Below the pieces are notes generated by a model. That model was not told where the DNA came from, made no database searches, and worked only from the letters and a program-made list of their open reading frames with translations. Positions 21,539 through 23,904 of a stretch of DNA of 64,000 bases are shown piece by piece (the first letter of the stretch is position 1; each line of letters opens with the position of its first letter). Position numbers and translations under genes: made by a program. This DNA is from Persephonella hydrogeniphila. Its GTDB lineage: Bacteria > Aquificota > Aquificia > Aquificales > Hydrogenothermaceae. The stretch covers positions 1-64,000 of the forward strand of contig NZ_OBEI01000011.1 of NCBI RefSeq assembly GCF_900215515.1. The letters are read 5' to 3'.

Positions 21539-21628
21539 ACTTATCCTTTCGTAATTTTATCAAAAAAACCTTTCTTTTTCTTTCAAACAGGTATAAATTA
21601 TGGTTATATGAATTTCAGGAGGTAGAGG

Positions 21629-21976
21629 TTGGATAAGATAGCTGTTTTATCTCTTTCTATGGCTATGATAGGGGGTATAAGCTGGTTTTTCTTTGGAAAC
21701 AAAGATGATGGGAAAAAACCTGAGAATTCTTCTGAAAAAATAAAAAAGGTAGAGCTTAATATATCCGGTATGCACTGTGCTGGATGTGTAGCCGGGATAG
21801 AAGCAACACTGAAAGCAACAGAAGGGGTTATAACTGCTTCTGTAAACCTTGCCACATCAAAGGGGGTCTTTGAGTATGACCCATCAAAAATATCTAAAGA
21901 ACAGATCATTCAGAAAATAAAAGATTTAGGATACGATGCTTCTGAAGACCTTCAGAATTTTGAAAAAAAAAGTTAG
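21629..21976 (+). CDS. Membrane-anchored HMA domain, zero-frame product of copA
   Basis: In the zero frame translation stops at 21976 and gives 115 aa: a transmembrane helix (residues 4-22), a charged linker, then a complete heavy-metal-associated domain with GMHCAGC (C50, C53). The TTG start at 21629 has a strong AGGAGGTAGAG site. This product alone would be a membrane-tethered copper chaperone. The downstream frame encodes the rest of a P1B ATPase without its own good start, so this stop is reached only if no frameshift occurs. E. coli copA is known to make a chaperone and the full pump from one gene by frameshifting; the same is inferred here. Confidence 0.65.
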   Translation: MDKIAVLSLSMAMIGGISWFFFGNKDDGKKPENSSEKIKKVELNISGMHCAGCVAGIEATLKATEGVITASVNLATSKGVFEYDPSKISKEQIIQKIKDLGYDASEDLQNFEKKS

Positions 21977-23904
21977 AGGAAGAAAGAACTCTTAAGCGTA
22001 AGTTTTATCTTTCCCTTATTTTTACTGTATCCATATTTTTACTACATTTTTTAGATATCCCTGTACTGCAGAAACCTGTACTTAACCAGTTTTTTACAAT
22101 AAAAAATACTGTTATTTTTCTTCTTTCATCATTTGTTCAATTTTACTGTGGATGGGATTTTTACAGTTCTGCATTAGGAGGTATAAAAAACAGAATTGCA
22201 GATATGAATCTACTTGTTGTTCTTGGAACATCAGCAGCTTACTTTTATTCTGTTTTTGTTATGATCCTTCCAGATATTTTTCCGGAACAGATGAGGCATC
22301 TTTACTTTGAAGGGGCTGCATCGATAATAACATTTGTACTGTTAGGGAGATATTTAGAAACGAAATCAAGAAACAAGGCAACAGACTTTATGAAAAAGCT
22401 CTTAAATCTTCAGTCTAAAGAAGCTGTAATACTTGTTGATGGCAAAGAGTTAAAAATCCCAGTGGAGAATGTTGTAGTAGGGGATAAAGTTATTGTCAGA
22501 GCTGGAGAAAAAATACCTGTAGATGGAGCAATAGTGGAAGGAAGTGGGGCTATAGACCAGTCATTCGTTACAGGAGAGTCTGTTCCTGTTTTGAAAAAAG
22601 AGGGAGATTACGTGATAGGAGGAACTATAAATAGAGATGGTTTTATTATTGTAAAAGCTACTAAAACAGGAAAAGATACATTTTTATCCCAGATGGTAAA
22701 GCTTTTGTCTGAAGCTCAGGATAAAAAACCTCCTGTAGGAAAGTTGGCAGACAGGATCGTATCTATTTTCGTTCCTGCTATTATGATAATATCTGTTATT
22801 GTTTTTGACATATGGTATTTTCTGGATAGACCCGATATAGCCTTTCTGGCAAGTGTTTCTGTTCTTATAATAGCATGCCCCTGTGCCCTCGGAATAGCAA
22901 CACCGATAGCTGTGGTTTCTGCTGTAGGAAGGGGAGCAAAAGAAGGTATTCTTATAAAAAATCCAGACAGTCTGGAAAAGATAAGAAGTATAGATACTGC
23001 ATTTTTCGACAAAACAGGAACTGTCACGGAAGGAAAACTATCAATCACTGAAAAGGTGATAAAGGATAATGAACTGCTTAAATATGCTTACCCTCTTGTA
23101 ATATCTTCAAAACACCCTGTTTTGGAGGCAATCAAATGGTCGGTTCCTGAAGGAGAAAAAAAGGCGAACAATATAAAAACCGTTGCTGGTAAAGGAATAA
23201 AAGGGGATGTAAATGGAAAAGAGGTTATTATAGGAAACAGAGAGTTTCTTATGGAAAATGGGATAAATTTAGATATACCGGAAGGAAAAACAGAAGTGAT
23301 AATATCTGTAGACAAAAAGATAGTAGCTTATTTTTTCCTTGAAGACAGAGTAAAAGATGAAGCAAAGTATGTAATACAGAAACTGAAAAGCAGAGGGATA
23401 GAAACAGTTCTTCTTACAGGAGACAGAAAAACCGTTGGCGAAAAAATATGTCAGGAAATCGGTTTTGATAAATGTTTCACACAACTTCTTCCTGAAGATA
23501 AATACAGAATTGTCACTGAATACCAGAAAAAAGGCAGAAAAACAGTTTTTATAGGAGACGGTATTAATGATGCTCCTGCAATGGCTGTTTCTGATACAGG
23601 TATAGCTGTGATGAAAGCTACAGATCTTGCTAAAGAGGCAGGAGATCTGATAATACTGAAAGACGATTTGAGACTTGTTCTTAAGGCTTTATCACTTTCT
23701 AAAGAAACAGTTAAAACGATAAAACAGAATCTCTTCTGGGCTTATGCGTACAATACAGTTGGCATTCCTGTAGCTGCAGGCATTTTATTTCCTTTTTTTG
23801 GTATTCTTCTGAAACCTATATTTGCAGGTATTGCAATGTCCTTTAGCTCTGTTACTGTTGTACTGAATGCACTGAGACTCCAATTTAAAGATATAGGAGA
23901 TTAA
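21629..23904 (+). CDS. copA: Copper-translocating P1B-type ATPase, read through a -1 frameshift
   Basis: Copper exporter. With a -1 shift in the A-run at 21963-21971 the two frames join into about 758 aa with no gap: TM anchor, HMA domain, then KLEEERTLKRKF leading into the first helices, QFYCGWDFYSSAL and ADMNLLVVLGTSAAYFYS. Downstream are the actuator TGESVPV, the metal site ACPCALG, the phosphorylation site FFDKTGTVTEG, the SSKHPVLEAI motif and GDGINDAPAM. The second frame is open well upstream of its first ATG at 22204, so the region between is coding. Alternatives are a sequencing error or a recent inactivating mutation; the long intact second frame argues against decay. Confidence 0.8.
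21963..21971 (+). other. Candidate -1 slippage site in copA (A9 run)
   Basis: Nine consecutive A's. The zero-frame codons GAA AAA AAA AGT put the heptamer A_AAA_AAA at 21964-21970. A -1 slip gives AAG TTA GAG and continues into the ATPase; without it TAG is met at 21974. The run also suits transcriptional slippage. Confidence 0.7.

Follow-up and report, generated by a model that had tools for sequence, protein, structure and literature searches.

Two candidate proteins from a copper-pump gene split at nine adenines in Persephonella hydrogeniphila and its relatives, with probable slippage of RNA polymerase

How is a copper pump made from a gene whose two parts lie in different reading frames? 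This question is raised by a copA locus of Persephonella hydrogeniphila, located in a stretch of 64,000 nucleotides (nt) of contig NZ_OBEI01000011.1 (positions 1 to 64,000; the window). At this locus a short zero frame with a metal-binding HMA domain ends just past a run of nine adenines (A9), and a P1B-type ATPase continues in the -1 frame. The frame split at the A9 run is a genuine observation, and it recurs throughout the family. We consider it fairly probable, judging from sequence data, that two proteins come from this gene and that the pump arises mainly through RNA polymerase slippage, with A9 being read as ten adenines (A10). The layout of the locus, in window positions, is as follows.

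21617 to 21622, + strand: Shine-Dalgarno (SD) sequence AGGAGG, with a spacing of 6 nt to the TTG start at 21629
21629 to 21976, + strand: zero-frame open reading frame (ORF) of 115 amino acids (aa), with N-terminal helix, charged linker and HMA domain, ending in EKKS and stop; aligned with 12 orthologues
21635 to 21694, + strand: predicted N-terminal membrane helix, residues 3-22, based on the AlphaFold2 model (of low confidence here, with a predicted local distance difference test, pLDDT, of about 55) and conservation
21755 to 21937, + strand: HMA domain (PF00403) with metal site GMHCAGC; Foldseek matches to ATP7B metal-binding domains and CopZ
21963 to 21971, + strand: A9 run, the putative recoding site
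21970 to 23904, + strand: -1 frame, open from AAG at 21970, predicted P1B-1 Cu(I) ATPase of 644 aa, HMA not included
21974 to 21976, + strand: TAG, the zero-frame stop, 2 nt past the A9 run
22204 to 22206, + strand: earliest ATG/GTG/TTG in frame with the pump, at codon 78 counted from the junction, downstream of the membrane helices TM1-TM2
22408 to 22941, + strand: E1-E2 ATPase domain (PF00122)
22990 to 23589, + strand: HAD hydrolase domain (PF00702) with DKTGT

Across the A9 run the zero frame reads GAA AAA AAA AGT TAG, and its product ends in NFEKKS. The preliminary description of this locus, made from the sequence alone, had the zero frame ending two codons after an A_AAA_AAA heptamer. This was confirmed: the heptamer lies in frame within A9 (21964-21970) and is followed by AGT and the stop. 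The short ORF matches PF00403 at 4.8e-19. The -1 frame, described as fully open and encoding a complete P1B ATPase, proved to be so, and it matches the copper-translocating P-type ATPase model TIGR01511 at 3.2e-176 (587 bits vs a cut-off of 397). The P1B-1 motifs TGE, CPC (in the membrane), DKTGT, GDGxND, and N(x6)YN and MxxSS (in the last membrane helices) were present in 28/28 orthologues; by motifs and TIGR01511 score, the pump is predicted to be a P1B-1 Cu(I) ATPase (CopA). Joining both frames takes one A more (A10) or two fewer (A7); eight adenines, which had been expected to restore a single frame, would not do so.

The pump was used as query against 61 related genomes, which yielded full orthologues whose open frame ends just before the HMA, as in the window. 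Junctions were read in 31 genomes, five further loci included. These bacteria of hot springs and vents probably represent the family Hydrogenothermaceae, the genus of the window being Persephonella. The arrangement of one gene in two frames, HMA and pump, was common to 31/31 orthologues; relatives having one unbroken frame and lacking the A-run, which the preliminary description had regarded as telling against its proposal, did not turn up among them. The run, whose length in relatives that description had wanted checked, was exactly A9 in 30/31, single-contig assemblies among them, and the fused HMA-pump proteins share identities of 46-99% (median 54%). When the short ORF was used as query against 136 genomes of the phylum, the 31/31 family matches covering it entirely were short frames of 115-197 aa, and most of the better HMA matches of the sister family lay inside pump-fused frames of about 670-820 aa, which marks the split as a trait of the family. 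The predicted N-terminal helix ahead of the HMA, also pointed out in the preliminary description, is conserved among orthologues, with the sequence ...IGGISWFFFGKK in their alignment. In one of the metagenome-assembled genomes (MAGs), G008, which is 55% complete, the copA pump frame at locus L017 has an extra break about 40 codons past the A9 junction.

Could the split be a sequencing or assembly error that hides a true A10? Homopolymers are error-prone and one MAG displayed eight adenines (A8). However, A9 occurs in 30 separately assembled genomes, and two further genes of this family do show A10 where it is present. The conservation of A9 across 30 genomes refutes such an error in practice, and we regard it as extremely improbable.

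The codons at the junction are as constant as the run itself. When 28 complete members were aligned by codons, GAA-AAA-AAA-AAG was written with one codon each in 28/28 sequences. Among 122 degenerate columns with an invariant residue, a single codon was used in only nine; four of these are consecutive and constitute the junction, and the remaining five encode Cys (TGT) or Phe (TTT). These genes use AAA for 1647 of 2166 Lys codons and GAA for 984 of 1433 Glu codons, and in the linker on either side of the junction residues are free to vary. Across the family, differing sequences supply the zero-frame stop, 2, 5 or 8 nt past the run.

Start codons in the pump frame indicate whether the pump could be translated on its own. 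Family-wide, the first one is found anywhere from codon 12 to 80 after the junction, and several members, including the window, have none before codon 66-80. Since the first start in the window lies behind TM1-TM2, independent initiation cannot yield a complete pump. As judged from the sequence, pump production from this gene requires recoding, by slippage of either RNA polymerase or the ribosome at A9. A different view would hold that these are two genes, with an internal start for the pump whose use may be coupled to translational termination at the end of the HMA gene. The SD-like AGAGG right after the run in some members and the ATG at codon 25 in Sulfurihydrogenibium-type members are consistent with it, but no start position is shared by the family, and both the strict A9 and the codon invariance would be left unexplained. 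For the gene of the window we rejected an internal pump start, given its first start at codon 78, and we deem the two-gene interpretation very improbable.

We propose that faithful transcription and translation of A9 would yield a 115-residue protein made of a membrane helix and one HMA directed toward the cytoplasm. RNA polymerase, by re-adding one A, would generate an A10 mRNA in which GAA AAA AAA AAG TTA is read into the -1 frame. From this mRNA a Cu(I)-exporting ATPase of the P1B-1 type would be translated, about 760 residues long and beginning with the same membrane-anchored HMA. The ribosome, by slipping -1 on A_AAA_AAA, would arrive at an identical fusion protein and possibly contributes. 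The short product would act next to the pump as a membrane-tethered copper donor or buffer.

Evidence on the slipping machinery came from the run lengths of the genome. In the window genome (2.0 Mb), A/T runs of exactly eight numbered 572, those of exactly nine 28, and those of at least ten one, while within the window itself counts from A6 to A8 drop only about threefold (ratio about 0.3) per added step. A9 is depleted genome-wide, and five other family members held 19-23 exact A9 runs each. A break of this kind, here between A8 and A9, was interpreted by Baranov et al. 2005 as a sign of selection against slippage during transcription (PMC1088944). Slippage by bacterial polymerases consists mostly of single-base insertions in A/T runs (PMC5574713).

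Three of the 28 A9 runs of the window genome lie in genes that continue in the -1 frame, namely copA, ylxR and a gene for an HD-domain nucleotidyltransferase (below, G, C and L numbers denote genomes, contigs and loci, and G000 is the window genome). The ylxR gene (PF04296), located behind nusA (G000:C7:36674-36684; L086, L214), is split at exactly A9, with CIICKKK followed in the -1 frame by RPKRELIRF. The same A9 split was found in 22/24 family genomes, and in G001 ylxR has A10 and is continuous. In G014 (L228), ylxR also has A10, with the opposite shift needed to reach the downstream frame. The HD-domain nucleotidyltransferase (G000:C8:65055-65065; L088), which by eye we take to be of the poly(A)/CCA type, has the same -1 arrangement. 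It is split at A9 in 15/20 genomes and continuous in five, with A10 in G004 and G016, no long run in G025 and G031, and continuity judged by frame length only in G018. The contig carrying dnaX in the window genome has none of the A9 runs listed genome-wide.

The phase of the run differs by gene: G-AA/AAA/AAA/AGN in copA, NNA/AAA/AAA/AAG in the nucleotidyltransferase and TGT/AAA/AAA/AAA in ylxR. All three codon phases are thus covered, with the same -1 sign. The three genes share the run length of nine and require one nucleotide to be added, which is what polymerase slippage would lead one to expect. From these patterns we infer that slippage at A9 does occur and is mainly transcriptional.

Programmed ribosomal -1 frameshifting, in which two tRNA-Lys would slip in tandem on A_AAA_AAA after faithful transcription, was the mechanism suggested in the preliminary description. 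All 30 A9 orthologues carry the correct in-frame heptamer, and E. coli copA provides a precedent (PMC5009743; PMC9548414). In addition, Aquificaceae alone are reported to have another tRNA-Lys, whose anticodon is CUU (PMC4227106), hence the family with the split gene should depend on tRNA-Lys UUU. Against this mechanism, the run is kept at nine though the heptamer needs only seven, and exactly A9 recurs in two other genes of the same genomes in the other two codon phases. An SD-like stimulator upstream of the run is not conserved among the family orthologues, most of which lack one at the usual distance, and only single members have it. RNAalifold found no consensus downstream structure in 30 aligned sequences nor within the genus, pseudoknots being outside its model. 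The mean minimum free energy of the downstream region corresponds to z = -1.1 vs mononucleotide shuffles, and the single low values may stem from the purine-rich linker followed by the T-rich membrane segment. We consider transcription about twice as probable as the ribosome as the site of slippage, leaving purely ribosomal frameshifting a rather doubtful candidate.

Some observations weigh against the transcriptional, two-product interpretation. Each A9 contains an in-frame A_AAA_AAA heptamer, for which reason the ribosome may contribute. The ylxR gene keeps A9 in those 22/24 genomes though without slippage it encodes just a short peptide of no use, and the persistence of A9 is therefore by itself no proof that the short copA product is used. 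Finally, the A8 orthologue, L032, belongs to a MAG of 320 contigs with 7% contamination (G061), and represents either an error or another solution.

What, then, would the short product do? Its AlphaFold2 model (mean pLDDT 71) consists of helix 3-22 followed by an HMA fold. The hydrophobicity of the helix points to membrane insertion, and the lysines after it suggest that the HMA faces the cytoplasm. The HMA at the split gene is the sole PF00403 domain in 29/31 carrier genomes, the window genome included. Two other P1B-type ATPases of the window genome (G000:C10:29658-31553 and G000:C15:1731-3605) are 36-38% identical to the pump, and neither has an HMA at the PF00403 level. Conservation, the intact GMHCAGC, the model with its resemblance to ATP7B and CopZ, and the status of sole HMA make plausible a role of the short product in donating or buffering copper while tethered to the membrane. 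The chaperone role put forward in the preliminary description thus retains its plausibility as regards the HMA fold with an MxCxxC site, as in Atx1/CopZ. A free soluble form does not agree with the N-terminal hydrophobic helix, and the short product stayed below the NCBIfam CopZ cut-off (67 vs 95 bits).

It may also be that the short product is waste and only the full pump matters, the split being a tolerated defect in which an ancestral deletion from A10 to A9 is rescued by polymerase slippage. The ylxR and nucleotidyltransferase genes show the same A9 split with short forms of no obvious use, and relatives have A10 or run-free continuous versions of them. A comparable origin has been proposed for homopolymer frameshifts of Blochmannia and Buchnera (PMC3017870). 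Nevertheless, no A10 or continuous copA was found in 31 genomes, and continuous versions amounted to 0/31 for copA vs 4/19 for the nucleotidyltransferase in an earlier count (p=0.017, kinship ignored), which suggests, if weakly, that copA is retained for both of its products. The short product moreover carries a conserved and intact HMA domain, with no other HMA in most genomes, and the stop is retained 2-8 nt past the run by differing sequences. We regard a tolerated defect as possible, albeit unlikely. Equally tentative is the proposal that the family has fixed at least copA, ylxR and the HD nucleotidyltransferase at exactly A9 and uses polymerase slippage as a constant expression device, which in copA would set a fixed ratio of membrane-tethered chaperone to pump.

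The operon context did not indicate a function, as the neighbours of copA differ among genera. In the genus of the window these are presumably alr and a GDPD-type gene, and in Sulfurihydrogenibium-type members we take them, by eye from their translations, to be a YqhA-like membrane protein and a U32-type peptidase.

If our interpretation is true, a solution in which one gene provides both chaperone and pump has arisen twice, the second time with its logic inverted and probably through a different molecular mechanism, and a family of free-living thermophiles relies on polymerase slippage for its copper pump and two more conserved genes. One could then test directly if homopolymer frameshifts serve regulation or are defects that the cell tolerates, since the same genomes hold copA, with a useful-looking short product, and ylxR, with a useless one. 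Gene callers may well miss or mis-annotate the split pump gene.

Literature on frameshifting or slippage in Persephonella, Sulfurihydrogenibium or Hydrogenothermaceae yielded nothing relevant within a partial journal coverage that excluded supplements, and the main text of the GeneTack survey does not mention a copper or ATPase frameshift. Programmed -1 ribosomal frameshifting in E. coli copA, or CopA(Z), was reportedly described by Meydan 2017 and Drees 2017. As this system is treated in two papers (PMC5009743; PMC9548414), reading without a shift produces the pump, and shifting produces the short form. The parallel drawn in the preliminary description holds in that here, too, one P1B-1 pump gene would yield a pump and a short HMA protein via a -1 frame change. 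The logic is reversed: in E. coli the pump lies in the zero frame with an early stop in -1 and the shift gives a short soluble form, whereas here the unshifted reading would give the short form. This form bears a predicted membrane helix, and the shift site consists of A9 alone, with neither a conserved stimulator nor, pseudoknots aside, a consensus downstream RNA structure. The locus is also reminiscent of Shigella mxiE, where homopolymer slippage is needed for the longer protein, and of Thermus dnaX, with an A9 slippage site in a thermophile host (PMC1088944, PMC5009743). As in such genes, a run of at least nine A/T of conserved length sits at the frame junction; the genes themselves are different, and slippage here is predicted from sequence. 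In Blochmannia and Buchnera, too, several genes are broken at poly(A) runs, some of them shared between species (PMC3017870). The present family, in contrast, consists of free-living thermophiles with few A9 runs (about 20-28 per genome), and among the unslipped products there is one that forms a complete domain.
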